A stretch of 64,000 nt of DNA from NCBI RefSeq assembly GCF_014652875.1, contig NZ_BMZQ01000003.1:1-64000 (forward strand). Direction: 5' to 3'. This document shows, in pieces, positions 149 to 28,877 of this stretch. Numbering within the stretch: the stretch's first letter is position 1; every line of letters begins with the position of its first letter. Under the pieces are notes generated by a model. It had not been told where the DNA came from. It did no database searches and worked only from the letters and a program-made list of their open reading frames with translations. Both the position numbers and the translations under genes were made by a program. The stretch is from Tianweitania populi. GTDB taxonomy: Bacteria; Pseudomonadota; Alphaproteobacteria; Rhizobiales; Rhizobiaceae.

Positions 149-219
149 TGAGCAGTCCTTGTGCACCATAAGAGAGGGACTTGGCTGCGCTAAGGGTTCT
201 GCCAACAGACGAGGTCTCA

Positions 220-1943: not shown

Positions 1944-1964
1944 GGTGATCCCCTCGCCCCGGTC

Positions 1965-3584: not shown

Positions 3585-3587
3585 CGA

Positions 3588-4061
3588 TCACATAAAAAGC
3601 TGAATGTTGCTGAAGGGCGCGTCGAAGTTGATCAGGTCGATCCGCTTAAGCTTGATCCTGAGGGCGCCATCCACAGTCACGAGGTCATGGCTCGCCCAGC
3701 CGGAAAAGCGCTCCAGCACGTCACCGCGCGTTTCCGTGTAGATGAAGCTGGTGCGGGTGGATGCCGTGCCGGCCGCCTCGTCCAGGGCGGTGAGCTGCGG
3801 CGCTTGCAGCAGATGATGGCAGCGGCTTTTCGGCTTTTGCGAGAAGGTGCGCTCGCCAGCCAGCCGCTCGACGCGCACCTTCAGGAGCAAAAGGTCCTCA
3901 TACATCAGCGAGGGCTGGAGAACGGGATCGGTCTGCTGCCATTCGAGCGGCATCCAGTAGCGGGCGTCCGGGTGGTAAAGTTCGATCCAGGACTGCCACT
4001 GCATCCTGTCGAGCAGGTCGGCTTCGTTATAGATGAAATCGATGACGTCCTTGCGGTTCAC
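3588..4061 (-). CDS. Rieske-type ring-hydroxylating oxygenase, beta (small) subunit
   Basis: 157 residues with the SnoaL-like/NTF2 cone fold expected of dioxygenase small subunits. The N-terminal ADLLDRMQWQSWIELYHPDA and the central ARYWMPLEW are typical. The subunit carries no cofactor and stabilises the alpha3beta3 hexamer. Its ATG overlaps the alpha-subunit stop by 4 bases, as expected for stoichiometric subunits. Identification rests on those motifs and on adjacency to alpha. Confidence 0.88.
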   Translation of the reverse strand: MNRKDVIDFIYNEADLLDRMQWQSWIELYHPDARYWMPLEWQQTDPVLQPSLMYEDLLLLKVRVERLAGERTFSQKPKSRCHHLLQAPQLTALDEAAGTASTRTSFIYTETRGDVLERFSGWASHDLVTVDGALRIKLKRIDLINFDAPFSNIQLFM

Positions 4062-5392: not shown

Positions 5393-5438
5393 GGATACAC
5401 TCCTCCTGCGTCGCGTTGCTACGTTGGATCCGGCTGTT

Positions 5439-6401: not shown

Positions 6402-6421
6402 CACAGATTTCTCGCCCAAGA

Positions 6422-6439
6422 AATATGATTTCACATATT
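6422..6439. promoter_or_regulatory. Inverted repeat upstream of the oxygenase operon, possible MarR operator
   Basis: AATATG-N6-CATATT is a perfect 6-bp inverted repeat in an AT-rich gap between the reductase start and the stop of the upstream dehydrogenase gene. The position, about 20 bases 5' of the reductase ATG, suits an operator overlapping a promoter. The three MarR genes nearby make that family a reasonable candidate. Functional assignment is inference. Confidence 0.35.
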
Positions 6440-8587: not shown

Positions 8588-8644
8588 GCTCCCCTCCATT
8601 TTCCTGCCGGACGCCCCTATATCCGATTTTTTCTCAGGCAGGCG

Positions 8645-11884: not shown

Positions 11885-12594
<710 letters not shown>

Positions 12595-12598
<4 letters not shown>

Positions 12599-14367
12599 GC
12601 GGTTCCCCCGAGATAAGCTTCCTGAACGCGCGGATCTTCGCGCACGGCTTCCGGCTGGCCCTCGATGAGCTTCTCGCCGAAATCCATCACGACGAGGCGA
12701 TCCACCAGTCCCATCACGAATTCCATGTCGTGTTCAACCAGAAGGATGGTGAGCTTGTCATTGTCGCGCAGCGACTTGAGCAGGGCTGCAAGCTGCTGCT
12801 TTTCACCCCGGCGCAGACCGGCGGCCGGTTCGTCCAGCACCAGCAGAACGGGATCGGCCGCAAGCGCGCGGGCGATTTCCAGAATGCGCTGGTTGCCGAG
12901 CGGCAGGTTGCCGGCGAGCTCAAAAGGCTTGTCGCCCAGCCCGACGCGCTCGAGCTGCTGGAGCGCGTCATACCGGGCGGAGGCTTCTTCCGCCCTGTTC
13001 AAGCGGAACAGGCCGCTAAACAGGCCGGTATGCGTGCGCGGATAAGCACCGAGCATGACATTGTCGAGCAGGGTCATTTTCGGCCGCAGCTTCACGTGCT
13101 GGAAGGTTCGGGCAATACCGGCCTGGGCGATGTTGGACTGCCGCGTTCTGGTGATGTCCTTGCCGGCAAAGGTGATCGAGCCGCTGTTGGTCTGCAGCGC
13201 GCCGGTCAGAAGGTTGAACATCGTGCTTTTGCCGGCGCCGTTCGGCCCGATCAGGCCGAGGATCTCACCGGCATTGACGTCGAAGCTGACCTTGTTGACG
13301 GCAATTAGGCCGCCGAACCGGCGCTCCGCCTGGTCGACCTTGAGCAGCGGCGTGCCGGCCGCGGGCTTGTCGCGCCGTGCAAGCGGCGTGGCTTGCGAGG
13401 GACGTGGGATGGCGGTTGCGGGAAGATATTGCTGGACCCACGCCACGACGCCGCCCCGGGCATATTGCAGGAACACGATGAAGAGGCCGGCATAGGCCAC
13501 CACTTCGAGCTGACCCGTGCCGCTTGGAATGATGTAATGGAGATAATCCTGCACGAAGTTCTTGAGCAGCGTCACGATCGCCGCGCCGATCACGCCGCCG
13601 ATCGGGCTGCCCGCGCCGCCCACCATGGCCATCATCAGATATTCGATGCCCATCAGCGGCTCAAACGGGGTAGGACTGATGAAGCGGCTGAGATGGGCAT
13701 AAAGCCAGCCCGACAGGGCGGCCAGGAAAGCTGCAAAAACGAAGCAGGTGACCTTGATCCAGAACACGTTGATGCCGAGGCTTTCAACCAGCGTGTTGCC
13801 GCCACGCAGCGCGCGCATGGCGCGGCCGATGCGTGAATCCAGAAGGTTATACACCAGCAGCAGCACAACACAGACCACCGCCCAGATCAGGTAATAGATC
13901 TGCCAGCTTTCAACCAGCGACACGGAACCGATCGAGATCGGCGGGATGGACGCGATGCCGTTATGCTTGCCCAGCCCTTCCACATTGCCGAACAGGAAGC
14001 CGATGGCGAGGCCCCAGGCGATGGTGCTGAGCGACAGGTAATGGCCTTGGAGGCGCAGCGTGATCAGGCCGAGGATAAAGGCGACCGCGCAGGTGATGAC
14101 GATGCCGAGCAGGAGGCCGATCCAGGGCGAACCGCCGTTCAGCGCGGTGACCCATGCGCTGGAATAAGCGGCGAGGCCCACAAAGGCCGCCTGTCCGAAG
14201 GACACGAGACCGCCGACGCCGGTCAAAAGCGCAAGGCCGATCGCGACCAGCGCATAGATGCCGACATAGTTCATCAGGGTGATGGTGAAGGCACCCAGCA
14301 GGAACGGCGCGCCGACAAGCGCCAGAACCGCGATCAGAACGGCGAGGCGAAGGGTGAAGCGGCTCAT
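12595..14367 (-). CDS. Fused LivM permease-LivG ATPase of a branched-chain-type ABC importer
   Basis: 590 residues in one chain. Residues 1-300 are a LivM-type permease with about eight to ten membrane helices ([20 protein letters not shown] and the [17 protein letters not shown] loop). Residues 340-590 are a LivG-type ATPase: Walker [15 protein letters not shown], signature [15 protein letters not shown], Walker [14 protein letters not shown] proline-rich linker near 310-335 joins them. Such fusions are known in this transporter class but are less common than separate genes. 4-base overlaps with LivH upstream and LivF downstream indicate one tightly coupled operon. Confidence 0.92.
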
Positions 14368-15413
14368 TCCTCGTCATGCTCCTCGGTATGCACGGACACG
14401 ATCGATCGCCAGATCAGGATCGGGATCAGGAGAGAAAAGACGATCACGTCCTTGAAGGCGCTGCTTTGGAACGAGGCGAAGCTTTCCAGCACGCCCACGA
14501 ACAGGGAGCCGATGGCGGTGCCGGGATAGCTCACCAGCCCGCCGATGATCGCCCCCACAAAAGCGCGCAGCCCCAGCAGGAAGCCGGAATCATAGAACAT
14601 GGTGTTGACCGGGGCGATCAGGATGCCGGACACGCCCGCCATCAGCGAACCGACAATATAGGCGATCGTACCGGAGCGCTCGGGGCGGATGCCCATCAGC
14701 CGTGCGCCGGAGCGATTCACGGCGGTTGCGCGCAGCGACTTGCCGATCAGCGTGAAGTCGAAGAACAGGTAAAGGAGGCCGCTGAACAGAACGGCCGCAA
14801 ACATGATCAGGGCAGCCTGGCCGGTGATCATGATCGAGCCGAACTCGAAGATCGCATCCGTCATCGGCTCGGTGCGCACGCCTTCGGGCCCGAAAAACAG
14901 CAGGCCGAGACCCACAAGCGCAAAATGCAGCGCCATGGAAACGATCAGCAGCATCAGCACGGATGCATCGGCTATCGGACGATACACGATGCGGTCAAGT
15001 AGAGGCGCGATGGGCAGGATCAGGATCAGGGAAAACAGGATGCGCAGCACCATGCTCGACTGATAAAGCGGCTCGGACAGCCACACAACGCCGACGAGTG
15101 CCAGCGGCAGAGCGAGGTAGTAAAGGAGTGCGCCGGGGATTTCGTGGGCCCGTCCGTTGCGCAGAAGCGCAACCACTTCCACGAGTGTGGCCATGCCGGC
15201 TAGAACCACAACAAGGCCGGCAGTGCCGGGAAGCCTGCCCATTTCAAGCGCCGCGAGGGTCAGGGCGGTAAAGGCCGCGATGTCGCCGAAGGGAATGAAG
15301 ACCACACGGGTCACGGTGAAGATCAGCACCGTGCCGATGGCGATCAGAACATAGATCGCACCGGAAGCAAGGCCATCGATCGCAAGGATCGAAGCAATAT
15401 CGAAATCCATCAA
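14364..15413 (-). CDS. livH: Branched-chain-type ABC importer permease LivH
   Basis: 349 residues, a polytopic membrane protein. The start GLASGAIYVLIAIGTVLIF is typical of LivH, and the C-terminal AFVGAIIGGLVSYPGTAIGS is the loop that contacts the ATPase. At 349 residues it is longer than most LivH proteins (about 290-310); an extra segment around residues 60-130 supplies additional hydrophobic stretches. It pairs with the LivM half of the next gene. It lies 128 bases after the binding-protein gene with a hairpin between. Confidence 0.88.
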   Translation of the reverse strand: MMDFDIASILAIDGLASGAIYVLIAIGTVLIFTVTRVVFIPFGDIAAFTALTLAALEMGRLPGTAGLVVVLAGMATLVEVVALLRNGRAHEIPGALLYYLALPLALVGVVWLSEPLYQSSMVLRILFSLILILPIAPLLDRIVYRPIADASVLMLLIVSMALHFALVGLGLLFFGPEGVRTEPMTDAIFEFGSIMITGQAALIMFAAVLFSGLLYLFFDFTLIGKSLRATAVNRSGARLMGIRPERSGTIAYIVGSLMAGVSGILIAPVNTMFYDSGFLLGLRAFVGAIIGGLVSYPGTAIGSLFVGVLESFASFQSSAFKDVIVFSLLIPILIWRSIVSVHTEEHDEE

Positions 15414-15541: not shown

Positions 15542-16696
15542 TTACGGCTCGTAGGTCCACTTGCCGTCGACCAGCTTGACCACCACGAGCGAGCGCTCGT
15601 CGACGCCATAGCTGTTGCCTTTGCGGAAGTTGTAGACGCCATGGACGCCGGCAACCTCGTCGCCCTTGAAGATCTCTTCCTTCAGGGCTTCGCGGAAAGC
15701 GGGCGTGCCGGGTTGTTCAGCCTTCAGCGCGCGTTCGGCCGCGTCGACCAGGATCACCCAGGCGTCGAAGCTGTAGGCGGAAAAACCGTCCGTGGTGGGT
15801 TCCCCGTTGGCCTTCTGGTAGGCGTCGCGGAATTCCATGGAGATCTTCTTGGCAAAATGCTCTTCCGGCAGCTGTTCGGCCACGATGATCGGGCCGGTGC
15901 TGACCTTGACGCCTTCAACCGCCTTGCCGCCGACGCGGATGAAGTCGGCATTCACCAGCGCCGCCAGGCCGTAGAGCTCGCCCTTGTAGCCGCGCTTGGC
16001 TAGTTCCAGCGGCGGCAGGGCGCCCTGGGTTGCCGAGCCGCCGAGAAGAACCGCATCGGGCTTGGATGCCAGCACCTTCAGGATCTGGCCGGTGACGGAA
16101 GTGTCGGTGCGCGTATAGCGCTCATTAGTGAGAACCTCGATCTTGCCGGCTTCTTCGGCTGCCTTGGCGCCTTCATAAACCAGGTCGCCCCAGGCATCGG
16201 CAAAGCCGATATAGCCGATGCGCTTTTCACCGTCGCGCACCATCCGGTCGGCGATCACGCTTGCCATCAGCGCGGGCGGCTGAGGCATGGTCACGCCCCA
16301 CTGGTTGGAACCGTCGCCTTCATCCAGCTTCACCGGCGAAATGGCGATCATCGGAACCCTGAGTTCCTTGGCAACGGCCATCATGGCGATGGTGGACGGC
16401 GCGGTGGCCGTGCCGATCAGGATGTCGACCTTGTCTTCTTCCACGAGCTTGCGCGCATTGCGCGTTGCAGCCGAAGGATCGGCGCCGTCATCAAGCTCGA
16501 TCACGGTGATCTTTTCGCCGCCGACTTCGCTTTGATACTGCTGCCCGGCCTTGATCCCCTTGGAATAAGGAATGCCGATCGAAGCGCCGTTGCCACTAAG
16601 AGACGTAACGAAGCCAACCTTGATATCGGCATGAGCGAACGTGGTCGACACCACCCCGCTTAATAGAGTTGCTGCGAGTAGGAGCGATCTGCGCAT
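15542..16696 (-). CDS. Branched-chain-type ABC importer periplasmic binding protein
   Basis: 384 residues from ATG 16696; a longer frame to 16810 lacks a sensible N-terminus. The signal peptide is MRRSLLLAATLLSGVVSTTF with cleavage near AHA-D. The mature protein is a LivJ/LivK-type type I periplasmic fold (VGFVTSLSGNGASIGIP, and VEEDKVDILIGTATAPSTIA). It delivers substrate to the LivH/LivM-G/LivF complex encoded downstream. A close paralogue, with the same order of motifs, is at 21987-23141 without its own permease. The ligand is probably an aromatic or carboxylic acid, by context only. Confidence 0.9.
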   Translation of the reverse strand: MRRSLLLAATLLSGVVSTTFAHADIKVGFVTSLSGNGASIGIPYSKGIKAGQQYQSEVGGEKITVIELDDGADPSAATRNARKLVEEDKVDILIGTATAPSTIAMMAVAKELRVPMIAISPVKLDEGDGSNQWGVTMPQPPALMASVIADRMVRDGEKRIGYIGFADAWGDLVYEGAKAAEEAGKIEVLTNERYTRTDTSVTGQILKVLASKPDAVLLGGSATQGALPPLELAKRGYKGELYGLAALVNADFIRVGGKAVEGVKVSTGPIIVAEQLPEEHFAKKISMEFRDAYQKANGEPTTDGFSAYSFDAWVILVDAAERALKAEQPGTPAFREALKEEIFKGDEVAGVHGVYNFRKGNSYGVDERSLVVVKLVDGKWTYEP

Positions 16697-17143
16697 CTGT
16701 GTTCCCCACTGTTGCGACGTTGAACCAGCTGACGGCTGAAGCCGCCTTAATGCTTGTTGCCGGGGCGCTGGCCAGTCGGCTGCGCACCTTCTTTTCTTTG
16801 GTTCGTGCAAGCTGAGCGTCGATTAAGATCCCAACAAGCCAGATGATCGCCGGTGTCGAAACCCGTTTCGCTACGCTGTAGGTGGACCCGTTACCGCCCC
16901 TCAGCTTGAATATGTTCCGGAAGGCTCCAATCCTTCCTTCGGCCACATCGATCGAGAAGCCGATTTCAAAACGCTAGTACTTTAGGCTTGAAGTGTCGAG
17001 AATTTATTTTATGCATAAGACATCTTCGGACGTGACGGCTTCGATGCGTTGATAATACCCTCATCGCTGTCGTAATGCTCGGTTGGGGATGAAGGCGCCC
17101 ATGTCTGCCGATTACCGCCTGATTGTTCGGGGAAGGAAGCGTG
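16697..17143. other. Divergent intergenic region, no gene
   Basis: 447 bases between the divergent binding-protein gene and the racemase-family gene. Open frames here lack family signatures. The segment near 16970-17030 is AT-rich and holds the palindrome listed at 17009-17018, so it most likely contains both promoters and their operator. Confidence 0.6.
17009..17018. promoter_or_regulatory. TTATGCATAA palindrome in a divergent promoter region
   Basis: A perfect 10-bp palindrome in an AT-rich stretch between the Liv operon and the thiolase operon. Its TTATGC/GCATAA halves match those at 8665-8682, there with a 4-bp spacer. Shared halves suggest one regulator, possibly one of the three MarR proteins, acting on both divergent promoters; the spacing difference weakens this. 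Confidence 0.35.
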
Positions 17144-17962
17144 GTGCGCATTTTCTGGCAAAGCTTCTTGGATAAAACAATCGGCGCGGCCTATCTCCGC
17201 CGCCTCGAAGATTATCTCAATGGCATTGCTGCTGCCGGCACGCAGGTGGAGGTGTCCGGGATCTCGCCGCCTGATCGCGATTTTGGACGATTGGCCGAAT
17301 TTCGCTGCGCCATCCACGCCATTGATGCGGGCATCGGCGCTGAGGAAGCCGGCTATGATGCCGTGGTGATGGGGCATTTCCAGGATCCCGGCCTTTATGA
17401 GCTGCGCTCGGCTTTGCGCATTCCGGTTGTAGGTGCCGGTGAAGCCACGCTGCACACCGCTTCGCAACTCGGACGCCGTCTTGGCCTCGTGACGCTCGAT
17501 CGCGCCTTTGAGGTGTGGCACCATGAACAGGCCGAGCTTTATGGGCTTGGCCGACGCATCCAGGGCGTTGTAGGCATGGGTTGCCGGCCGGAAGACTTCA
17601 ACGCCTGTTTTGCCGGCGACGCCATTGCCAGGGACCAGCTGCTGCGCGATTTCACGGCATGCGCCATGCCGCTGGTGGAGGCCGGCGCCGACGTGATCGT
17701 TCCGGCCGGCGTTCTACCGGGCCTGCTGATCGGAGGTGAGCCCGGTTTTGTCGTCGGTTATGCGCCGGTGGTGAATTGTGCCGCCGTTGCTTTGAAATCA
17801 GCCGAGATGTGGGTGCAGTTGCGGGCGCTGAGCGGGCTTGAGCCCAGCCGCGGCCCTTCCTTCGCCCTCGCCAATGAACGCGCCAAGGCCGATTTCCGGC
17901 AAGCCGCCGCGCATGGCCTTCACTCCTTCAACCCCACCATCAACGGAGCGGATCAGCAATGA
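17144..17962 (+). CDS. Asp/Glu/hydantoin racemase-family protein lacking both usual cysteines
   Basis: 272 residues from GTG 17144, 6 bases after GGAAGGA; GTG 17141 and TTG 17123 are alternatives. The fold is recognisable from VVMGHFQDPGL (residue 75 on), VVGAGEATLHTA and VIVPAGVLPGLL. In hydantoin racemases the two catalytic Cys sit in the first and third of these motifs; here they read GHFQ (His) and PAGV (Ala). It therefore belongs to a divergent branch and may not be a racemase. It is the first gene of a five-gene operon and overlaps Ohr by 4 bases. Confidence 0.8.
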   Translation: MRIFWQSFLDKTIGAAYLRRLEDYLNGIAAAGTQVEVSGISPPDRDFGRLAEFRCAIHAIDAGIGAEEAGYDAVVMGHFQDPGLYELRSALRIPVVGAGEATLHTASQLGRRLGLVTLDRAFEVWHHEQAELYGLGRRIQGVVGMGCRPEDFNACFAGDAIARDQLLRDFTACAMPLVEAGADVIVPAGVLPGLLIGGEPGFVVGYAPVVNCAAVALKSAEMWVQLRALSGLEPSRGPSFALANERAKADFRQAAAHGLHSFNPTINGADQQ

Positions 17963-18387
17963 CGACCCCTGAGAAGATCATCTACTCAACGGAAGTAACC
18001 GCCACCGGCGGCCGCGACGGCAAGGCTTCCAGCAAGGACGGCAAGCTCGCCGTGTCCCTGTCCGTGCCGAAGGAGTTCGGCGGTCCGGGTGCGGACGGCA
18101 CCAATCCCGAGCAGCTGTTTGGCGCAGGCTATTCAGCCTGTTTCCTCAGCGCGATCAAGCTGATGGGCCGGCTGAACAGGGTTGCCATCCCCGACCAGTC
18201 GACCGTGACCGCCAGGATCGGCGTCGGCACGGTTGAGGTCGGCTACATGTTCACCGCCGAGCTCGTGGTGGACCTGCCGGGCGTGCCGCGCGAAACGGCT
18301 GAGGAACTGGTGGCCGGCGCGCATGAGCGCTGCCCCTTTTCGCGCGCCACGCTAGGCAATGTCGATGTCAAGCTGACTATCGCCTGA
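17959..18387 (+). CDS. Ohr/OsmC-family peroxiredoxin
   Basis: 142 residues with the Ohr order of motifs: IYSTEVTATGGRDG at the N-terminus, NPEQLFGAGYSACFLSAIK with the peroxidatic Cys, and HERCPFSRAT with the resolving Cys. Ohr proteins reduce organic hydroperoxides using lipoylated partners. It overlaps the racemase-family gene by 4 bases and precedes the thiolase by 15, so it is a true operon member. A role in removing peroxides formed by oxygenase chemistry is plausible but inferred. Confidence 0.92.
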   Translation: MTTPEKIIYSTEVTATGGRDGKASSKDGKLAVSLSVPKEFGGPGADGTNPEQLFGAGYSACFLSAIKLMGRLNRVAIPDQSTVTARIGVGTVEVGYMFTAELVVDLPGVPRETAEELVAGAHERCPFSRATLGNVDVKLTIA

Positions 18388-18402: not shown

Positions 18403-19578
18403 ATGAGGACATCCCGAAGAGCATCCTATGACGGCGTCGTGGTCACGACGCCCGTCACCATCCCTTACCAGCGCTATTCCGTGGAAAGCGCGCATTGGTG
18501 GATCGGCCGTGCTTTGCGCGGTCTTGTTGATGCTTCGGGAATAAGCCCGCGCGACATCGACGGCTTCTGCCTGTCGAGCTTCACCGTCGGCCCGGACACA
18601 GCCATTGGCCTGACGCAGCATTTCGGGTTGAGCGTGCGCTGGCTCGACCATATCCCGCTTGGCGGGGCGAGCGCCGTTGCCGCTTTCCGGCGGGCGGCGC
18701 GCGCGGTGCAGGCCGGCGACGCCGACATCGTGGCATGCGTGGCGGGCGACACCAACCACGTCGATTCCTTCCGCCGCACGCTGGAGAATTTTTCCCGCTT
18801 CGCCGCCGATGCCGCTTACCCCTATGGCGCGGGGGGGGCCAATGCGAGCTTCGCGCTGATCGCGCGCCATTACATGAACCGCTTCGGGATTTCCCGCGAG
18901 GATTTCGGCCGCATTGCCGTGTCGCAGCGCGACAACGCCCTGCGCAATCCCAATGCCTTAATGAAGACGCCGCTGACGCTCGAACAGTATATGGCGGCGC
19001 GGCCGATCGCCGATCCGATCCACCTGTTTGATTGCGTGATGCCCTGCGCCGGCGCGGAAGCCTTTCTTGTGATGCGCGAGGAAAAGGCCGCCGCCGCCAA
19101 ACTCAAGGGTGCGCGCGTGCTGGGCACGATCGAGCGCCACAATGCGCGCCTCGACGATGTCGTGCAGAACCATGGCGGCTGGATCGCCGACATCGACGAT
19201 CTGTGGGGCATGGCCGGCGCAGCGCCCGGCGATCTCGACTTCGTGCAGACCTATGACGATTATCCGGTGATCGTGATGATGCAGCTCGAGGATCTCGGCT
19301 TCTGCAAAAAGGGCGAAGGCGCCGAATTCGTCCGCAGCCATGACCTGACGATCGACGGCACCTTCCCCCACAACACCACCGGCGGCCAGTTGTCGGCGGG
19401 ACAGGCGGGTGCGGCCGGCGCTTATATCGGCGTCACGGAGTCGATCCGCCAGGTGCTGGGCACGGCCGGTCCGACCCAGGTCAAGGATGCGCGGCTCGGC
19501 CTCGCGTCCGGCTTTGGCATGATCAACTATGATCGCGGCCTTTCGTCCGGCGCCATGATCATTGCGGGAGAAGGCTGA
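18403..19578 (+). CDS. SCP2-type thiolase-like protein
   Basis: 391 residues of the thiolase superfamily, sterol-carrier/lipid-transfer subgroup. The region of the usual nucleophilic Cys reads IPLGGASAVAAF with no Cys. The C-terminal NTTGGQLSAGQAGAAGAYIG supplies the conserved His/Gly loop, and FDCVMPCAGAEAF is near residue 210. Members of this branch that lack the nucleophile, such as Ltp2, act as retro-aldolases together with a DUF35 partner; BbsAB is another thiolase-DUF35 pair. The next gene, overlapping by one base, encodes exactly such a DUF35 domain. Reaction assigned by family, substrate unknown. Confidence 0.87.
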   Translation: MRTSRRASYDGVVVTTPVTIPYQRYSVESAHWWIGRALRGLVDASGISPRDIDGFCLSSFTVGPDTAIGLTQHFGLSVRWLDHIPLGGASAVAAFRRAARAVQAGDADIVACVAGDTNHVDSFRRTLENFSRFAADAAYPYGAGGANASFALIARHYMNRFGISREDFGRIAVSQRDNALRNPNALMKTPLTLEQYMAARPIADPIHLFDCVMPCAGAEAFLVMREEKAAAAKLKGARVLGTIERHNARLDDVVQNHGGWIADIDDLWGMAGAAPGDLDFVQTYDDYPVIVMMQLEDLGFCKKGEGAEFVRSHDLTIDGTFPHNTTGGQLSAGQAGAAGAYIGVTESIRQVLGTAGPTQVKDARLGLASGFGMINYDRGLSSGAMIIAGEG

Positions 19579-20819
19579 TGGTTGAGCCGCTGCAAAAGCC
19601 GGGCCGCAAGAACCCGCTCGATCGCACGAGGCAGCAGGCGCTGCCACCGGCCGGCCGCAGCCGCAAGGGCCAGTTGCTCACGCTCGCTGCCGCGCAAGGG
19701 CGCTTTGCCCTGCAATGCTGCAGTGAATGCGGCCTGTTCTGTTACCCCGCGCGCGACGCCTGCCCCAACTGCCTGTCGGCCGACCTTCCGCTGACCGATG
19801 CGCCGAACGGCGGCACGATCGTTTCCGAAACAACCGTGCGCGTGCCCACCGATGTGTATTTCCGCGAGCGCGCGTCCTGGCGCATCGGCATCGTCAAGCT
19901 CGATTGCGGCCCCGAAATGGTGGCGCATCTTCATGCCGATTGTTATGACGGCGAGCGCGTGCGCATGTCCCTGCAGCTCGACAAGTCCGGCCAGGCCGTG
20001 GCCTTTGCCCGCCCGACCGAAAAGACCCCTAACCAGGCCGATGACAGGCAATGGCGTGAAATGACGGCAACACCCAAATTCCGGCGCGCTTTGGTCACCA
20101 ATGGCCGCACCGCGCTTGGCCAGGCTGTGGCGGCAGCGCTGAAGGCGGCCGGCGCGGAGGTTTATGTCGGCCTCGCCGACCCCTGGAAGCCATTTCCCGG
20201 CGAGGAAACACTGAAGCGCGACCACCATGTCGTGCCGCTCGATGTGGCCGATGAGCGTTCCGTTCAGGAACTCGCAGCCGATCTTGGCGGCAAGATCGAT
20301 ATTCTCGTCAACTCAACGGAGCATGTGCGTCCCGGCGGCTTGCTGGACCGGCGCGTCACCAACGCGGTGAAAGACGAAATGGATCAGCATCATTTCGGCT
20401 TCGTGCATCTGGCGCAGGCCTTTGGCCCTGCCATGCGCGCGCGCGGCGCCGATGGCGTCAACAGCGCCGCCGCATGGGTCAACGTATTTTCCGTTTATGC
20501 GCTGGCGAACTGGGCGCCCTTCGGCACCAACAGCGCAGCACAAGCCGCCGCCTTGTCCCTGTCGCACTGCCTGCGCGGCGAATTGCGTCTCGGCGGCGTG
20601 CGGGTGGTCAACCTGTTCACCGGCCCGCTCGATACCGAATGGTTCCAGACCGTGCCGCCGCCCAAGCTCGCACCCAAAGCGGTTGCCAGCGCCATCGTTG
20701 CCGCGCTTGAAAACGGCACCGAGGACGTGTTTGTGGGCGATGTCGCGGAAGATGTGCGCCAGCGGCTTCTTGCGAATCCGAAGGCGCTGGAACGCGACCT
20801 GAACCAGCGCATTTCCTGA
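19578..20819 (+). CDS. DUF35 (Zn-ribbon/OB-fold) protein fused to an SDR domain
   Basis: 413 residues with two parts. Residues 40-155 form the DUF35 partner domain: the zinc ribbon is CSEC (48-51) and CPNC (62-65), then an OB fold. Residues 165-413 are a Rossmann-fold SDR. The SDR half is degenerate: the cofactor motif reads TNGRTALG, NNAG is replaced by NSTE, and the usual YxxxK position reads FGTNS, so both catalytic Tyr and Lys are absent. DUF35 proteins bind SCP2-type thiolases, and the thiolase gene is adjacent. The SDR half may be a CoA-ligand or scaffold domain. Confidence 0.85.
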   Translation: MVEPLQKPGRKNPLDRTRQQALPPAGRSRKGQLLTLAAAQGRFALQCCSECGLFCYPARDACPNCLSADLPLTDAPNGGTIVSETTVRVPTDVYFRERASWRIGIVKLDCGPEMVAHLHADCYDGERVRMSLQLDKSGQAVAFARPTEKTPNQADDRQWREMTATPKFRRALVTNGRTALGQAVAAALKAAGAEVYVGLADPWKPFPGEETLKRDHHVVPLDVADERSVQELAADLGGKIDILVNSTEHVRPGGLLDRRVTNAVKDEMDQHHFGFVHLAQAFGPAMRARGADGVNSAAAWVNVFSVYALANWAPFGTNSAAQAAALSLSHCLRGELRLGGVRVVNLFTGPLDTEWFQTVPPPKLAPKAVASAIVAALENGTEDVFVGDVAEDVRQRLLANPKALERDLNQRIS

Positions 20820-20833
20820 AAGGGCGGACGATC

Positions 20834-21613
20834 ATGACCGACAACACCGCCATCGCTTTCGCGACCGCCATTGCGCAAGGGTCGCTACGCGTCGTGGACC
20901 TCACCTTCACGCTGTCGCCCGACATGCCGGTGATCGTGCTGCCGCCGGAATTCGGCCAATCATCGCCCGTGCGCATCCAGCAGATCTCGCGCTACGACGA
21001 GAACGGGCCTGGCTGGTACTGGAACAACATCACGGTTGGGGAACATACCGGCACGCATTTCGATGCACCTGTTCATTGGTATACGGGCAAGGACCTGCCC
21101 AACAACGCGGTGGATACGCTGCCGGTGGAGCACATGATCGCACCGGCCTGCGTGATTGACTGTTCGGCGCAGGCTGCTGCCGATCCCGACTTCCTGCTCA
21201 CCCGCGCGTTCGTGGAAGACTGGGAAAAATCCCACGGCCGCATTCTCGCCGGACACTGGGTTCTCCTGCGTACCGACTGGTCGAAGCTTGGGCCCCGCGA
21301 CTTCGCCAATCTGCGCGAAGACGGCGCCCATACGCCCGGCCCGGATTCAAACGTCATGGAATGGCTGGTCAACGAGCGCGACATTCTTGGCTTTGGCACT
21401 GAAACCATCGGCACCGATGCCGGTCAGGGCAGCCATTTCGCCCCCCCTCACCCCGCCCACCATTTCCTTCATGGCGCCGGCCGCTACGGGCTGCAATGCC
21501 TGCGCAATCTCGACCAACTGCCGCCCACCGGCGCGATCCTGATTACTACGCCGCTTAAGATCCTCAACGGCTCCGGCAGCCCGTTGCGGGTGCTCGGCGT
21601 CGCGCCGAGCTAG
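20834..21613 (+). CDS. Cyclase/kynurenine formamidase-family metal-dependent hydrolase
   Basis: 259 residues. The metal-binding signature HTGTHFDAPVHW lies near residues 74-85; GTDAGQGSHFAPPHPAHHFL supplies the distal His residues. VDLTFTLSPDMPV near residue 23 is the usual N-terminal start of the fold. The family hydrolyses amides, esters or cyclic products, including formylkynurenine and isatin. It is 14 bases after the DUF35-SDR gene and closes the operon. A late ring-opening or deacylation step would fit the island. Confidence 0.88.
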   Translation: MTDNTAIAFATAIAQGSLRVVDLTFTLSPDMPVIVLPPEFGQSSPVRIQQISRYDENGPGWYWNNITVGEHTGTHFDAPVHWYTGKDLPNNAVDTLPVEHMIAPACVIDCSAQAAADPDFLLTRAFVEDWEKSHGRILAGHWVLLRTDWSKLGPRDFANLREDGAHTPGPDSNVMEWLVNERDILGFGTETIGTDAGQGSHFAPPHPAHHFLHGAGRYGLQCLRNLDQLPPTGAILITTPLKILNGSGSPLRVLGVAPS

Positions 21614-21986: not shown

Positions 21987-23141
21987 TTAATTCACCAGCT
22001 TGTATTCGCCGTTGTCGATCCTCACCAAGACGCGCGAGCGCTCATCGACGCCTAGGCTGCTTTCGGGTGTGTAGTTATAGACTGCATGGGTGCCGACCAC
22101 TTCCTTCGTGGTGAACAGCGCTTCGCGCAAGGCGCTCTTGAACTCCGGCGTTCCAGGCTTGGCGCCTGTTTCCAGCGCGCGCGTTGCGGCATCCGCGAAC
22201 ACCAGCCAACCGTCGAATGCGTAAGGAGCAAAGGCATCCTGCACGGCTTCGCCGTTAGCCTTCTGGTAAGCGTCGCGGAAAGCCAGTGCGACCTTCTTGA
22301 TGGGGTTGTCGTCTGAGAGTTGCTCAGCCACAACAACCGGGCCGGTCGGGCAGATGATGCCGTTTGCTTGCTCGCCGGCCACGCGCAGGAAGTCGGCCGA
22401 GATCAGGCCGTGATTGCCATAGATCTTACCGTTATAGCGACGGTCGGCCAACGCCAACGCAGGCAGCGCACCTGGCGTAGCGGTGCCGCCGATCATGACC
22501 GCATCCGGCTTGCGGGCCACGGCCTTCAATGCCTGTGCGGCCACACTCGTATCGGTGCGGGCATAGCGCTCGTCCGTTACGATCTCGATGCCGGCCTTTT
22601 CTGCGCTCGCCTTCAGCGATGCGCTGAGCAGATCGCCGAAGGCATCGGCAAAGCCGATGAAGGCGACAGTTTTCACGCCGTTGGCCTGCATGTGATCCAC
22701 GACGCCCTGCACCAGCAGTGGCATAGGTTGCGGCGTTTGCACGACCCACGGCCCGCCCTCGCCTTCCGGTGGCGGAGCAATCGGCGAGATGGCAACCATC
22801 GGCACCTTCAATTCGGCGGCAGCCGTTGCCATTGCGAGCGTTTGCGGCGCGCCGGCCGTGCCAATGATGATGTCGACATTTTCCTGTTCCACAAATTTGC
22901 GGGCGTTGCGCGCCGCGGTGGATGGGTCGGAGCCGTCATCGAGAACAACCATGCGGATCGGCTCCCCGTTGATCTCGCCCTTGTATTCGAAGCCGGCTTT
23001 GATGCCCTTGTGGTTGGGAATGCCGATCGAGGCTACGGCGCCGCTTAGCGCAGTTCCAACGCCAACGACGATCTCGGCTTGGGCGGCTTGCGAAGCCGCG
23101 CCGATAGACAGCGCTGTGACAGCAACGAGAGCAAACTTCAT
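21987..23141 (-). CDS. Solitary branched-chain-type ABC periplasmic binding protein
   Basis: 384 residues with a signal peptide (MKFALVAVTALSIGAASQAA, cleavage near AQA-E). The mature protein has the LivJ-like fold (VGVGTALSGAVASIGIP, VEQENVDIIIGTAGAPQTLA). It follows the paralogue at 15542-16696 motif for motif, and both carry FRDAYQKANGE. No permease or ATPase gene adjoins it: relics lie downstream and an exonuclease remnant upstream. It may dock on the Liv complex at 11885-15413 and widen its substrate range. RBS GGAGAGG precedes the ATG, and a terminator follows the stop. Confidence 0.9.
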   Translation of the reverse strand: MKFALVAVTALSIGAASQAAQAEIVVGVGTALSGAVASIGIPNHKGIKAGFEYKGEINGEPIRMVVLDDGSDPSTAARNARKFVEQENVDIIIGTAGAPQTLAMATAAAELKVPMVAISPIAPPPEGEGGPWVVQTPQPMPLLVQGVVDHMQANGVKTVAFIGFADAFGDLLSASLKASAEKAGIEIVTDERYARTDTSVAAQALKAVARKPDAVMIGGTATPGALPALALADRRYNGKIYGNHGLISADFLRVAGEQANGIICPTGPVVVAEQLSDDNPIKKVALAFRDAYQKANGEAVQDAFAPYAFDGWLVFADAATRALETGAKPGTPEFKSALREALFTTKEVVGTHAVYNYTPESSLGVDERSRVLVRIDNGEYKLVN

Positions 23142-23702: not shown

Positions 23703-24696
23703 TCAGAGACGGAACCTATTCTCAGCGGTGAGGCGGATCGTCAACGGCTCGGCCTCATCCCACCGGTAGATCTCCGTACGTAGATAGTGGAGCTCGTCGT
23801 CGTAAAGATCCTCATCCACCTCGATCCACCACGCTTTAGGTCTGCCGTCACTGCCGTCCGACCACCGATATCCCCTCGCTTTTAGATGATCCTTCATGTC
23901 GAACGGTGAGTTCTCGGCGAAGATGCGGATCCTGCAGCGTGTACTGGATCGAAGCAGCTCGGCAAAAGGAGATTGCCCGCCCTCCTCTACAGCCCTTGCC
24001 AGCACCTCAGGCAGCGCATGACAATCATCAGTCGCGCGATGCCCCTCATGGAAGAGACCTGACTGGCCAACGAGATAGCCGAGCTTGTTGCCTTCGAAAC
24101 CGAGATCAGCCCACTTGATCTCCGATACCGAGCAGGCCCAGGCTTTCGGCACAAACGACGGCGAAAGCTTCTCGCAGAAGGGCCGATAAAAGGCTGCGTT
24201 ATGCGCGATTATCAAATTGGCCGGCTCGATCAAAGCATCCAGTGTGGCGATGTCGAACTCCTGTCCGGCAACCATATCGTCTGTGATGCCAGTAAGGCGG
24301 GTGATCTCTGGAGGGATAGGCGAAGAGGGCTGACGTAGTCCGCTATAGATGCTGACCACGTCGCCGACGATGCCTTCATTATTGTACGTGCAGGCCACAG
24401 CGCCGATCTCGATCACCTCGTCCCTTGCGTGCTGCAGACCGGTTGTTTCAGCATCAACCAACACAGCTAGGTTCGGGTATGCGCTTTGGCGGCGTGGAAC
24501 TACCTGCCTGGGAACCAGCTTGCGCGGCACTCTGTAGTGGCCGCTTTGTTCTAGCCGTTGAGCTGCCACTTCCGCGTTCGAGGTCTCCAGAGTTGCAGCG
24601 AAAGCCTCTTTCCGCTTCTTACGCAGTGGTCGCGGTGATTGCCGATAGCCCGGAGCCTCGTCAAAAAAGGTCGAACTGAGAAGTTGCTGTCTTCAT
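23703..24696 (-). pseudogene. DnaQ-like 3'-5' exonuclease, apparently decayed
   Basis: A DEDDh-type exonuclease. VDAETTGL carries the first acidic pair and GHRATDDCHAL the His/Asp pair. The second exo motif reads HNAAFYRPF, where the family has HNAxFD, so a catalytic Asp is Tyr (codon TAT where GAT is expected). A plausible original start is ATG 24696 (MKTATSQFDLF) after a GGGCGGGGG site, but its frame stops in a T6 run; removing one T joins it to the open frame ahead of the GTG at 24569. If GTG 24569 is the real start the gene is intact in frame but still lacks the Asp. Confidence 0.6.
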
Positions 24697-24749
24697 GCCC
24701 CCGCCCTCGCCTTCTTCGACGGCGCGGATTTGCCAGCGGATGGTCCTGA

Positions 24750-25313
24750 TCATCCGATACGGGCGAGCGTGTCGATCAGAGTAGAACGCGCAACGCTGAA
24801 GGTACGGCATACCGCAGACTTGCTGACGCCGGCCTCGAGGGCTTCAATGATCTGGTCGATCTTTTCCTGATCAAGCGCCTGTGGCTGCCCTGCCCGCTTG
24901 CCTCTTCGTTTAGCAGCCGCCAATCCCGCAATGACCCGCTCACGAGTGAGCGCCTGTTCATACTGGGCAAGCGCACCGAAGATCGAGAACAGCAGTTCGC
25001 CGTGAGGCGTGCTCGTGTCCATCTGTTCGGTCAGCGAGCGAAACGCAACACCCCTCCCCTTCAGGTCGGCGATGATGGACAGGAGGTGCGGCAGAGATCA
25101 GCCAAGACGATCAGGCTTCCAGACCACAAGGCAGTCACCACTGCGCAAGTCTTCCATGCAGGCATTTAGTCCGGGGCGATCGTCCCGTGTTCCCGAAGCT
25201 TTATCCTGGTCTAGATGACGCTCATCAACACCAGCGGTGATCAGCGCATCACGCTGCAGATCGACTGACTGACGATCATCAGCGGACGAAACACGCATGT
25301 AGCCAACTAGCAT
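24750..25313 (-). pseudogene. Serine recombinase (resolvase/invertase) with one nonsense codon
   Basis: The frame encodes 187 residues in total, the normal size for a Tn3-type resolvase or Hin-type invertase. The catalytic Ser is in GYMRVSSADD at residue 9-10, and the C-terminal HTH ends in SKSAVCRTFSVARSTLIDTL. TGA at 25098-25100 interrupts it after KPDRLG; the family has Arg there, and CGA to TGA explains it. Upstream and downstream are in the same frame. ALTRERVIAGLAAAKRRGKR is the long linker helix region. No transposase gene accompanies it, so it is a leftover of a mobile element. Confidence 0.85.
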
Positions 25314-25347
25314 GTGCGGGAAACCCTAAATCGTATGTTCCCGCACA
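25313..25347. repeat. Inverted repeat at the recombinase 5' end, possible res-like site
   Basis: TGTGCGGGAA and TTCCCGCACA form a perfect 10-bp inverted repeat separated by 15 bases, starting at the recombinase start codon. Resolvase binding sites and element ends lie in this position in Tn3-type units. It could also be a simple operator. Confidence 0.5.
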
Positions 25348-25707
25348 CTACACGATTTCGAAAGTAATTTTCGTACAAACCTGGACTACTCACAGGTTCG
25401 TTCTAGCGGCACTTAGGTCATTGATCGAAAATCATGTATTTTCCGACACATCGTATTTCGGCAAGCTTCAGCCTGTTGCAAATTTCCTAACGGAGCTGCC
25501 GCTCAGACATTTTACTCGGAGGGTATGGCTTACGGTTACTTTGATCTAAAGCCTGCCGCCTGTTTAACATATAATGCACGACAAGAAGATGTATTAGCAT
25601 GATATTTTCTGCGCGGCAGCTGACGGATAGGTTTGGTCTTGTGAATGATATAGCCGACGTTCGTTTCAGGCGATCTATAAGCACTGAATTACTGCTGCAC
25701 AGCTGAA
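25348..25707. other. AT-richer intergenic region without a recognisable gene
   Basis: 360 bases between the recombinase and the end of the DMFase-like gene. Composition is clearly more AT-rich than the flanking genes, in keeping with foreign or decayed DNA. No ORF with family signatures, tRNA or terminator of note was seen. Confidence 0.5.
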
Positions 25708-27372
25708 CTAATAACTAGAGAAGCGGTCCAGTGCGTTGCGGGTGATCGCTTCTGTGAACGGATCACTGCGGGTTAGTCCCATGATCCATTCGCAAGATCC
25801 CGCGGTAATGACTTCACCTTTGCCGCGCTTCATGCCGACCACCATGCCAGACCCGTACTGGAACTTGCGTCGGGCAACCGGAGTGTCTTCAGCGGCCAGT
25901 TCGGCCAGACCGTTGAGGTCGCTATCTCGAACGTAGTAGCGCACACCCTCGCCTTCATGCTCATGTTCCAGCAGGACGGCCGGGCTCATCGCCAAGATGT
26001 CGATCGCGTCGGGTACGCCTTCCGCGGCAACGGGATAAGGCAAGCCCTGGCGGAACGTGTAGTCGAGGCCGTCGACCTCGTAGCCGAAGATCCCGGCTTC
26101 CGCGCCGAAGATGTCGGCGTAGCGCAGGTCGGTGCCTTTGAAGGCCCAATGATCCGGGCGATAAACGGTAAAGCCGCGTGAGCCGCGTGGGGCAAAACCA
26201 CCCCAGCTCGCATACATGCCGTGGCAGCCGTTCACGCCAACCGTTGAGGCGCCGGGCCAGTTCACTCCGCCGCTTTCCCACGATGCGGTCAGCAGATGCT
26301 TGCGCTCCGGATCGTCGCGCACGGGATCCATGGTTGGCGCCTTAAACTTCCAGCAGTGTTGCTGGCTGCCATTGTCTTCTAGCCGGATCTGCCAGAGAAA
26401 GTTGCCACCGAAGCGGGAGAAACCACCGCCACGCTCAACAAAGGCCTCGACCGTCTTGCGCATGTCCCACGACCAGTATTCGTCATGTCCCACGGTGACG
26501 AGGCAACTGTAATCGTCGAGGATTTCAGGACGGAAATGAAGGTCGGTTTGCGTGATGATGTCGAAGTCGTAGCCTTCGCGCTCGGCCCATACAGCGAAAT
26601 GGCGATCGAACTGAGCCCAGCCAGCGGCCGCGTAGTACTGTCCCCAGCCGCCTGAGTAGCCCCATTCCTTGGAAGGGAAGCGCGGTGCGTCATTCATGTC
26701 CGGCAAAGGCGTTGTCATGATACGCGCCGCCCCTTTAGGCAGCCAGACCATTCCGCGTGTCCATGGCCGCTTGAGGCTGAGGATAGGAGAACCTTCGTTC
26801 TTGTTCGGCCCCCACGTGCCGAAGTAATGGTTGGCGCCGCCCCAGTCGTTGTAGGCAGTCCAGGTGCCGGTCGCCAGCATGAAGAGAATGCGGCCGCGAC
26901 GGGTTGCTGAGGTAGGACGCACCACAACGAAATGATGCTGAACGAAACGTTCGCCGCCAGCGCGTAAACAGGTCGACACAACGCGGTAGAAGCCCGATCG
27001 CAGGTCTTGCGGAATGGTCCAGCGATGCAGCACCGGCCAGTCGCATCCATCCGAATAGGCCGTTTCCGAGGTCTTGGTGAAGCTGCCCGGCAATCCGAAG
27101 CTTTCATGCACCATCTCCGGCTTGAAGCCGTCCCGATAGATCTGGATCGACCATTCCTGCGAGGTTGTTGATCCATGGAATTCAACCGTCTCGCCGGGAT
27201 CAAAGGACATCCGCTCGGTGTAAACAAAAACCTCCGGCAGATCGGGATCTTCGCGCGGGAACTGAAAGCGATAATCGGCTAGGAAATGCTCGTCCGCGTA
27301 GCCCCTCCGGACTGTACGCGGCAAAATGGCATGAGGGCCCATCTCGGGAAACTGGAACGGTTCCTTGGTCAT
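25708..27372 (-). CDS. N,N-dimethylformamidase large-subunit-like protein
   Basis: 554 residues resembling the C-terminal two-thirds of DMFase large subunits: GTWTAYNDWGGANHYFG, VTVGHDEYWSWDMRKTV and FGGNFLWQIRLED lie in the expected order, with a beta-rich N-terminal part (FVYTERMSFDPGETVEFHGS). The characterised DmfA2 is around 760 residues, so this is shorter and lacks the N-terminal lectin-like part. The small subunit gene is not present nearby. Members hydrolyse N-alkylamides using mononuclear iron. It diverges from a polyamine-type importer operon, suggesting that the importer brings in its amide or amine substrate. Confidence 0.75.
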   Translation of the reverse strand: MTKEPFQFPEMGPHAILPRTVRRGYADEHFLADYRFQFPREDPDLPEVFVYTERMSFDPGETVEFHGSTTSQEWSIQIYRDGFKPEMVHESFGLPGSFTKTSETAYSDGCDWPVLHRWTIPQDLRSGFYRVVSTCLRAGGERFVQHHFVVVRPTSATRRGRILFMLATGTWTAYNDWGGANHYFGTWGPNKNEGSPILSLKRPWTRGMVWLPKGAARIMTTPLPDMNDAPRFPSKEWGYSGGWGQYYAAAGWAQFDRHFAVWAEREGYDFDIITQTDLHFRPEILDDYSCLVTVGHDEYWSWDMRKTVEAFVERGGGFSRFGGNFLWQIRLEDNGSQQHCWKFKAPTMDPVRDDPERKHLLTASWESGGVNWPGASTVGVNGCHGMYASWGGFAPRGSRGFTVYRPDHWAFKGTDLRYADIFGAEAGIFGYEVDGLDYTFRQGLPYPVAAEGVPDAIDILAMSPAVLLEHEHEGEGVRYYVRDSDLNGLAELAAEDTPVARRKFQYGSGMVVGMKRGKGEVITAGSCEWIMGLTRSDPFTEAITRNALDRFSSY

Positions 27373-27779
27373 GATCGCCTAAATTCCTCGTTGGAACGAC
27401 CGATCGATCTGGGTCTGACCCAAACCTTTCGAAAAGAGCATCAAACAAGATGCTCAAGCGACATGGCAGCAAAAGCTGGCTGCCGGAGTGCAGAGGAAAG
27501 CCAACGCAGTGACCTGTCAAGCGCGAGGCTGAACTTAATGATAATTTATTCGGCCATGCCATGCCGAGGCGGTCGGAATCTTTCTATCAAGACGCACAAA
27601 AAGACTTCAATGCGAGCCGCATTTTTATGCTGGTTAGGTTGTCTAGCAGCCGTCGCCTTTAGAGCGAGAATGACAACAGAAGCCAAAAGACGCCGAACGA
27701 TAATCAAAATACTTGAGGTTAAGGATATATCGTGTAGCGTCTAACTTTCTACGAATGTGTCCAGGACCCGGGAGCTCCC
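27373..27779. other. Divergent promoter region between the DMFase-like gene and the importer operon
   Basis: 407 bases with no credible gene. It holds the palindrome at 27410-27422 near the minus-strand start and an AT-rich stretch around 27530-27745 before the plus-strand operon. Promoters for both directions should lie here. Confidence 0.55.
27410..27422. promoter_or_regulatory. 13-bp palindrome upstream of the DMFase-like gene
   Basis: TGGGTC-T-GACCCA is a perfect inverted repeat 38 bases before the minus-strand ATG. Symmetry and place suggest an operator. No regulator gene is adjacent; the nearest are the TetR gene at 34104 and more distant genes. Confidence 0.35.
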
Positions 27780-28877
27780 ATGTCGCAAACCGTCTCGTCG
27801 AACAACAAAGGCGCGTCTATCGAAATCGATCGTCTCGCCAAGACGTTCGGAAGCGTGAGGGCGGTTGACGACGTTTCGCTCACCATCGAACCCGGCGAGT
27901 TCGTCGCACTGTTGGGACCGAGTGGATCCGGCAAGTCGACTGTGCTGATGAGTGTTGCAGGCTTTGAGCGTCCCTCCGCTGGACGGATCATGATCGGTGG
28001 CAAGGATTGCACGAGGCTTCCACCAAACAAGCGCGACATCGGCATGGTGTTTCAGCATTACACGCTGTTTCCCCATCTAAGCGTCGGCGACAACGTCGCT
28101 TTTCCCCTGAAGATGCGCGGCGTGGCAAAGGCAGAACGGCGCAGGCAGGCTGAAGCCGCACTCGAGATCGTTCGTTTGGGTGGCTATGGCGACAGGATGC
28201 CGAAGCAGTTGTCTGGCGGACAACAGCAGCGCGTCGCGCTTGCCCGCGCCATCGTCTACAATCCGCAGGTGCTCTTGATGGACGAGCCCTTATCCGCGCT
28301 CGACAAGAACCTGCGCGAGGAGATGCAGATCGAGATCAAGCGGCTTCATGCCGAACTCGGCTTCACGGTCGTGTTCGTGACGCATGATCAGGGTGAAGCG
28401 CTGACAATGGCGGATCGCATCGCCATCCTCAAAGCTGGACGTTTGCAGCAGGTTTCGCCGGCGCGCGAGCTTTATGAGCGGCCATCGAACCTCTTCGCCG
28501 CGAGCTTCATCGGCGAAATGAACATGCTGCCGGTCCAATGGGATGGCGCAAACGCCACATTCTCAGAACGTGAGCACATCCGGCTGCCCGATAGCGCATC
28601 CATCGAAACGGTCCCATCCGGCCGGGCCGTTCTTGCCGTTCGGCCGGAACGGCTTTCTGTCACGTCTCCGGGTGAAACGGGCAGCTGGCGCGCGACGGTC
28701 AGCGATGTGGTTTATGCTGGCGCAGGCAGTCTGCTGATCACGCATCTTCATGATGGTAGCGAGGTTCGTCTGCGCGTGGCGAGTGCCGGGCAAGCCCCGG
28801 TCCGGCCGGGACAGGCCATCGGAATAAAAGTGCCGCCGGAAGCCGCCCTTCTTTATCCCGCGGACGCGGCTCGATGA
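27780..28877 (+). CDS. Polyamine/opine-type ABC importer ATPase (PotA-like)
   Basis: 365 residues. Walker A GPSGSGKST near residue 48, signature LSGGQQQRVALARAI near 143, Walker B VLLMDEPLSALD near 165, and the H-loop VTHDQGEALT. A C-terminal TOBE domain (residues 240-365) is typical of PotA/FbpC-class ATPases. RBS GGGAG precedes the ATG. It overlaps the next permease gene by 4 bases. Substrate could be a polyamine, amine or related cation; the divergent DMFase-like enzyme hints at an amide or amine. Confidence 0.92.
   Translation: MSQTVSSNNKGASIEIDRLAKTFGSVRAVDDVSLTIEPGEFVALLGPSGSGKSTVLMSVAGFERPSAGRIMIGGKDCTRLPPNKRDIGMVFQHYTLFPHLSVGDNVAFPLKMRGVAKAERRRQAEAALEIVRLGGYGDRMPKQLSGGQQQRVALARAIVYNPQVLLMDEPLSALDKNLREEMQIEIKRLHAELGFTVVFVTHDQGEALTMADRIAILKAGRLQQVSPARELYERPSNLFAASFIGEMNMLPVQWDGANATFSEREHIRLPDSASIETVPSGRAVLAVRPERLSVTSPGETGSWRATVSDVVYAGAGSLLITHLHDGSEVRLRVASAGQAPVRPGQAIGIKVPPEAALLYPADAAR

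Follow-up and report, generated by a model that had tools for sequence, protein, structure and literature searches.

The window analysed here, a stretch of 64,000 nucleotides from Tianweitania populi, carries two adjacent plus-strand genes whose products are a thiolase-like protein and a protein in which a DUF35 module is joined to a short-chain dehydrogenase/reductase (SDR) domain. A first-pass annotation of the sequence had placed the pair at 18403-20819 and suggested a new complex linking carbon-carbon bond cleavage to a Rossmann domain. The two open reading frames are indeed found there, at 18403-19578 and 19578-20819, and share one base within TGATG (TGA 19576-19578, ATG 19578-19580). The pair is not new in its own right: because the gene order iadC-D-E-F-G-H-I-J and the annotations are as described for Variovorax, we assign the pair, on sequence and gene order, to iadG-iadH of the described locus for degradation of the auxin indole-3-acetic acid (IAA), part of which lies in the window. 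The iadC, D, E, F and J genes form one minus-strand block (1215-6434), and G, H and I lie in a plus-strand block:

18403-19578, plus strand: iadG, 391 aa; thiolase fold with Gly88, YDDY at 284-287 and Gln329/Gln334; proposed retro-aldolase subunit
19578-20819, plus strand: iadH, 413 aa; DUF35 (zinc ribbon Cys48/51/62/65 and OB fold) followed by a degenerate SDR domain, residues ~165-410
20834-21613, plus strand: iadI, cyclase family; isatin hydrolase A homologue

Catalytic residues of IadG and IadH

The first-pass annotation had suggested looking for the same fusion in other genomes, and 94 of 107 pattern-matched stretches proved to encode relatives of it; the best 80 of these, with flanks of at most 8 kb, are the 80 loci referred to below. 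We aligned 97 IadG rows (the window protein, 77 of the 80 best loci and 19 further loci), which hold 92 distinct sequences, with two genes present twice. No row came from L045, L066 or L074, whose contigs begin within or beside iadH.

IadG matches Pfam Thiolase_C_1 (E 1.6e-33). As the first-pass annotation had noted, GGASA replaces its cysteine motif: in the alignment, the nucleophile column (C-x-S-G of Cys thiolases) falls on Gly88, the second glycine of GGASA. Glycine fills this column in all 97 rows, so that Gly88 is no sequencing accident, and no nucleophilic Cys is present. The Paracoccus row (L111) has a cysteine at column 90, two residues past the nucleophile column. The GHP histidine of thiolases is also not present in IadG, while YDDY (Tyr284, Asp286) and Gln334 are invariant in 97 of 97 rows and Gln329 in 78 of 78. 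The same genome encodes two other Thiolase_C_1 proteins, and these have the cysteine (NACSTGS and NACASGS) and also keep HDCF and GHPxGATG. On its Cys, His and YDxx columns we rejected IadG as an ordinary thiolase.

When IadG was compared with solved structures by profile search of the PDB, the aldolase Sal of Comamonas testosteroni (CtSal, 9myr) came top at 224 bits, followed by 4u4e (174), Ltp2 (169), 7yvy (168) and BbsB (116), of which 7yvy and BbsB have the cysteine. The predicted model of IadG has a predicted local distance difference test score (pLDDT) of 80.5, with residues 119-144 and 202-210 poor. Its best fold match was again CtSal (Z 44.0, root-mean-square deviation [rmsd] 3.1, 369 residues aligned), ahead of Ltp2 (Z 42.0, rmsd 2.6, 358 aligned) and 7yvy (Z 41.5, rmsd 2.5, 352 aligned); we took matches within Z 1 of each other as tied, so Ltp2 and 7yvy are inseparable by fold. 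The catalytic columns do separate the two kinds of enzyme. IadG, CtSal, Ltp2 and 4u4e have GG and YDxx, whereas in 7yvy, BbsB and both thiolases of the same genome these columns read C-x-S-G or C-S-A-G, HD[AC]F and GHP. In a 21-row tree the same four proteins stand across a branch with 100/98 support from the Cys thiolases, and IadG forms one clade (support 100/100). Since CtSal is the closest solved relative by both profile and fold, the coenzyme A (CoA)-thioester retro-aldolase named in the first-pass annotation appears the most likely activity. We would file IadG as aldolase-like but in a separate lineage, neither Sal nor Ltp2, because it has Asp286 at the Cys304 column of CtSal and Gln334 in the GQ motif (97/97).

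IadH carries, in order, Pfam zf-ChsH2, OB_ChsH2_C and adh_short, in keeping with the earlier description of a zinc-ribbon DUF35 domain followed by an SDR-like domain instead of a hydratase, and it is the sole OB_ChsH2_C protein found in the genome. The DUF35 assignment rests on the Pfam matches and on a profile match to 6ok1_B at 7.8e-10; a fold search with the whole of IadH returned nothing but SDR chains, whose alignments begin at about residue 131 or beyond, and thus barely tested the DUF35 part. The zinc-ribbon cysteines (Cys48/51/62/65) are kept in 99 of 100 IadH rows, the exception, L074, being truncated. Their spacing, C-x2-C-x10-C-x2-C, is the canonical C4 form (PMC12329534).

The predicted model of IadH (pLDDT 78.4) aligns in its SDR part with the NADP-bound SDR 5u4s (Z 28.4, rmsd 2.6, 234 aligned). 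A domain with this fold might still bind NAD(P)H and, by means of an atypical active site, reduce isatin or some other carbonyl, and two of its columns look favourable, with Ser305 in 94 of 100 rows and Tyr at column 318 in 66. The Tyr and Lys of YxxxK, though, never occur together (0/100). Lys322 is lost in 98 rows, both rows that have it (L094 and L107, one gene seen twice) carry Phe at 318, and the window protein carries Asn318 and Gln322. The TGxxxGxG glycine motif of SDRs has likewise become a T[ND]GR-type sequence in most rows, and we regard residual reductase activity of this kind as very improbable. In IadJ, the separate SDR of such loci, all 15 rows have both residues (two genes counted twice); with IadJ as the same-locus control, we rejected the SDR part of IadH on YxxxK as an active SDR.

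In a 33-row alignment, other residues of the SDR part do not vary, among them Arg169-Arg170, Asn302, Gly349-Pro350 and Trp355, so the domain seems to be selected for something other than standard catalysis. It is probably a pseudoenzyme without redox chemistry that acts as a scaffold or substrate clamp. The Rossmann domain of the first-pass annotation is thus upheld as an SDR fold, but it is not to be read as a redox partner because the Tyr-Lys pair occurs in none of the 100 aligned members. That annotation had missed both the catalytic degeneracy of the SDR and the membership of the iad auxin locus.

Two iadH gene models call for comment. In Agrobacterium pusense (L112, 7001-8254) the gene is annotated from 7376, while both the open frame and the similarity extend back to 7001; the DUF35 part is probably missing from the annotated product. 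The IadH match in L093 (genome G392) carries one internal TGA.

Proposed cleavage of dioxindole-3-acetyl-CoA

The side-chain removal step of the iad pathway has known genes. A 2025 preprint (PMC12633357) reports that deletion of iadF, G, H or I in Variovorax leads to accumulation of C10H9NO4, named there as dioxindole-3-acetic acid, and to a drop in anthranilate. The same source detected a likely intermediate with the formula C8H7NO3, that of isatinate, and showed it to be distinct from N-formylanthranilate. In Variovorax cultures on IAA, each of isatin, isatinic acid and dioxindole has been found (PMC9613470). Catalysis by CtSal involves Tyr302 and Cys304 of its YDCY motif; Cys304 may be stabilised by Gln347 and Gln352, and a Gly stands where thiolases have their Cys (PMC12329534). 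Sal works with the DUF35 part of its partner Shy alone (PMC11321319).

We think it likely that IadG and the DUF35 part of IadH together constitute a retro-aldolase for dioxindole-3-acetyl-CoA, with the SDR part as a pseudoenzyme. IadF would make dioxindole-3-acetyl-CoA (3-hydroxy-2-oxindole-3-acetyl-CoA), a tertiary beta-hydroxyacyl-CoA, for cleavage by IadG held in a complex by the DUF35 part of IadH. Tyr284 of YDDY would take the ring-hydroxyl proton, the C3-CH2 bond would break and turn ring C3 into the isatin ketone, and the enolate of acetyl-CoA would pick up a proton, most likely from Asp286 in place of CtSal Cys304. The expected products are isatin and acetyl-CoA, and IadI would then hydrolyse isatin to isatinate. 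The pseudo-SDR would have no redox role and could serve as a scaffold, a clamp or a dock for IadJ. Such a cleavage involves neither thiolysis nor a reductant, which agrees with a thiolase fold that has lost its Cys and with an SDR that has degenerated.

The published assignment differs. PMC12633357 describes IadG as a ketothiolase and IadH as an alcohol dehydrogenase that act with IadF in a reductive removal of the acetyl side chain, the product being C8H7NO2 (dioxindole); iadG and iadH of Variovorax paradoxus CL014 are annotated accordingly in that preprint and in PMC10374108. C8H7NO2 does build up in the strain with iadI deleted and in a strain expressing iadCDEFGH_JK2 (PMC12633357), and an older Bradyrhizobium japonicum scheme, as told in PMC8383072, puts dioxindole before isatin. 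The retention of four ring deuteriums by downstream labelled intermediates (PMC12633357) fits both the retro-aldol and the reductive course. The printed assignment conflicts with the residues of both proteins, which argue against a thiolase without nucleophilic Cys or GHP histidine and a dehydrogenase without the Tyr-Lys pair. On chemical grounds, moreover, dioxindole-3-acetyl-CoA has no 3-keto group for thiolysis, and the next gene encodes an isatin hydrolase homologue. IadI matches isatin hydrolase A at E 9.6e-108, with 60% identity over 247 residues (5nnb), and its HxGTHxDAPxH motif, which presumably binds metal, is kept in 96 of 96 aligned relatives. We therefore consider the ketothiolase and dehydrogenase roles unlikely.

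A broader version of the retro-aldol proposal is more tentative, and we would sooner doubt it than rely on it. In that version the pseudo-SDR half of IadH mixes with IadJ in SDR oligomers or clamps the oxindole ring, so that a single auxin-degrading complex would carry out dioxindole-3-acetate formation, retro-aldol cleavage and isatin hydrolysis, and the pair would represent a third lineage of DUF35 retro-aldolases.

Distribution of the pair and neighbouring genes

Across the 80 loci, iadG lies immediately 5' of iadH in 77, while in the other three the sequence begins at a contig end within or beside iadH, and iadI was seen in 79. Within the flanks F was found in 35 of the 80 loci, J in four and D in three. 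G-H-I is the constant module, and the oxygenase is often distant or not found at the threshold used. The fusion was also found over at least 80% of the query in 34 plasmid records (72,556 records searched), and its retention in these and in the 80 fetched loci rules out a chance or local fusion. A contiguous iadC-D-E-F-G-H-I-J order occurs in Ruegeria pomeroyi DSS-3, Roseibium aggregatum, Paracoccus saliphilus, L107 and L108. The R. pomeroyi row reads reductase, Rieske, beta subunit, AMP ligase, thiolase, DUF35-SDR, cyclase and SDR, and the species is among the IAA-degrading strains used in PMC9613470. Sulfitobacter W027 has a contiguous D-E-F-G-H-I-J plus part of C, and L107 (genome G379), with the same C-J order, belongs to the same phylum as the window genome but to another class.

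We then considered whether IadH and the Rieske subunit IadD occur together. Among 398 genomes drawn from the phylum, IadH (E<=1e-30) was found in eight and IadD (E<=1e-100) in eight, with both in six, compared to 0.16 expected if they were independent (8x8/398); these six include the window genome, and three are from one genus. IadH without IadD was seen in G265 and G392, and IadD without IadH in G237 and G324. When 30 IadH genomes chosen from the 80 loci were searched for IadD at E<=1e-100, it was found in 15, of which 11 are labelled Bradyrhizobium, and was not found in the tested Rhizobium, Neorhizobium and near relatives.

These counts bear on a further alternative, in which IadG-IadH is a Sal/Ltp2-type retro-aldolase or lyase for some other beta-hydroxyacyl-CoA that was recruited by iad, the cyclase-less F-G-H sets of Novosphingobium and Paroceanicella reflecting the older substrate. 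F-G-H without a detectable nearby cyclase is present in L113, L115 and L117, and the missing IadD in half of the chosen genomes points the same way. Set against this are the near-constant presence of I and the identity of YDDY, the GG pair and Gln334 in both kinds of locus. We think this origin improbable.

One group of loci (L070, L071, L073, L076, L077, L079, L080 and L082-L088) carries an AMP ligase together with G-H and, in most cases, I. Within it IadD was not found at E<=1e-100 in any of the 10 genomes tested (L070, L071, L073, L076, L079, L080, L082, L083, L085 and L087). In L070 a gene for a luciferase-like monooxygenase and one for an HpcH/HpaI aldolase lie nearby, and ORFs resembling these are found again in other loci. 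Loci of this group may rely on a different oxygenase or salvage dioxindole-3-acetate made by plants.

Several observations weigh against retro-aldol cleavage of dioxindole-3-acetyl-CoA by IadG-IadH. The Pyrococcus thiolase 7yvy, which has its Cys, ties Ltp2 both in bits (168 vs. 169) and in Z, so overall similarity alone does not separate aldolase from thiolase. Long branches meet in the tree, so the grouping that unites IadG with Sal and Ltp2 may in part be artefactual. IadG has Asp at 286 where CtSal has Cys304, a position intolerant of Ala, Ser and His (the C304A, C304S and C304H variants are inactive; PMC12329534), and the acid step of IadG must therefore differ from that of CtSal. Strains lacking iadI accumulate C8H7NO2, the formula of dioxindole, and the authors of PMC12633357 infer reductive removal with IadH; on our reading, a retro-aldol cleavage then requires other cell enzymes to reduce isatin. 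Finally, because 15 of the 30 chosen genomes lack a detectable IadD at E<=1e-100 and few flanks of at most 8 kb show F (35/80), J (4/80) or D (3/80), the substrate of IadG-IadH may elsewhere be different or come from another source.

Further features of the window are as follows:

181-699, plus strand: MarR-family regulator
1215-1943, minus strand: iadJ, SDR; TGxxxGIG and YxxxK both intact
1965-3584, minus strand: iadF, AMP-forming acyl-CoA ligase; 64% identity with the ligase that occupies the iadF position in R. pomeroyi
3588-4061, minus strand: iadE, small subunit of the oxygenase; 73% identity with the beta subunit of R. pomeroyi; GTG taken as start
4058-5392, minus strand: iadD, Rieske oxygenase large subunit; matches to 7yls/8h2t and 9o71
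5439-6434, minus strand: iadC, Fer2/NAD reductase; 56% identity to the R. pomeroyi PDR/VanB reductase
9552-11198, minus strand: second AMP-forming ligase
11885-15413, minus strand: branched-chain-amino-acid-type ABC transporter (ATPase, permease-ATPase fusion, permease)
15542-16810, minus strand: second solute-binding protein, upstream of the ABC genes; clusters with the 21987-23141 protein, same family
17123-17962, plus strand: Asp/Glu racemase-family gene, seen in 72 of the 80 loci
17959-18387, plus strand: Ohr-family peroxiredoxin gene, seen in 60 of the 80 loci
21987-23141, minus strand: solute-binding protein, iadK2-like

The protein at 21987-23141 matches 7ylt at E 2.6e-132; the PDB record is titled 'Putative ABC transporter, substrate-binding protein', and we take it to be IadK2. 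IadD matches the Rieske subunit 7yls/8h2t at E 2.8e-165 and 9o71, which is Variovorax IadDE (PMC12633357), at E 3.0e-164. By profile matches the MarR protein could not be tied to IadR; its best match was 3boq, and B. japonicum 7kym was matched weakly, at 8e-4 only.

Genes for a 3-hydroxyacyl-CoA dehydrogenase and an octopine/nopaline dehydrogenase-like protein lie beside iadC (6507-8599), and the same two kinds follow iadJ in Paracoccus saliphilus (L111). A fusion of FAD_binding_3 and Oxidored_FMN is encoded near iad genes in a Bradyrhizobium (L055:13714-16068), and a 72% identical copy is present elsewhere in the window genome (G000:C4:173721-176051). We take this architecture to be that of 2-aminobenzoyl-CoA monooxygenase/reductase, and the fusion could continue the pathway from anthranilate. 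Just past the iad block are an exonuclease gene and a 90-residue resolvase piece (23703-25022), and G+C dips to 0.566 at 24001-28000; together these are a possible edge of a mobile segment. Elsewhere, 25708-27372 encodes an N,N-dimethylformamidase beta-subunit-like protein (DMFA2_C, E 3.4e-69), and 56112-58115 encodes PNPOx_N, NAD_binding_1 and Fer2 domains in a single protein.

Relation to known systems

The iad genes and their requirement were known already. In the literature searched, which mostly did not cover subscription papers, we found no aldolase reading of IadG/IadH, no mention of DUF35 or a pseudo-SDR in IadH and no DUF35-auxin link. If the proposal is true, dioxindole-3-acetate, CoA and ATP would yield isatin and acetyl-CoA with no reductant needed, followed by isatinate and then anthranilate. 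It would also define a third, non-steroid lineage of DUF35 retro-aldolases, whose YDxx motif has an Asp instead of Cys or His and which bears a dead dehydrogenase where the steroid systems have a hydratase, and it would show engineers of auxin-degrading root bacteria which genes to move together.

In BbsABCD of anaerobic toluene degradation, the thiolase BbsAB and the SDR BbsCD are likewise encoded together, and BbsA carries DUF35. BbsB, unlike IadG, keeps its Cys and is a thiolase, and the Bbs SDR subunits are separate from the DUF35 protein, unlike in IadH. BbsCD was not among the best 60 of 251 IadH profile matches, which excludes nothing. Judging by the title of a reference in PMC10818641, BbsCD has inactive pseudoenzyme subunits.

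The steroid aldolase Ltp2-ChsH2(DUF35) (6ok1) is closer to IadG-IadH, with a similar fold (Z 42.0), GG at the nucleophile site, the Tyr of YDHF (YDDY in IadG) and a DUF35 partner. In its full reaction Ltp2 cleaves a C17 carbinol, the same bond arrangement as in dioxindole-3-acetyl-CoA. The hydroxyl of the proposed IadG substrate is on a ring carbon, as is the C17 hydroxyl of the Ltp2 substrate (PMC12329534). Ltp2 differs in that identity is 30% over 332 columns, the His of YDHF is Asp286 in IadG, and the stretch with its general acid Tyr344 aligns to the Gln334 region.

With the bile-acid aldolase Sal-Shy(DUF35) of C. testosteroni (9myr; PMC12329534), IadG shares the thiolase fold, Gly for Cys, a Y-D-x-Y motif, both supporting Gln residues and an adjacent DUF35 gene. 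Identity is 34% over 337 columns, the third motif residue is Asp rather than the Cys of Sal, and DUF35 is fused to a degenerate SDR in IadH but to a working MaoC hydratase in Shy; Sal-Shy acts on steroids, whereas the proposed substrate of IadG-IadH is an oxindole. IadG and IadH of V. paradoxus CL014 are the same genes by gene order and quoted annotations. In contrast to their published assignment as ketothiolase and alcohol dehydrogenase, we read the pair as a probable retro-aldolase joined to a pseudo-SDR.

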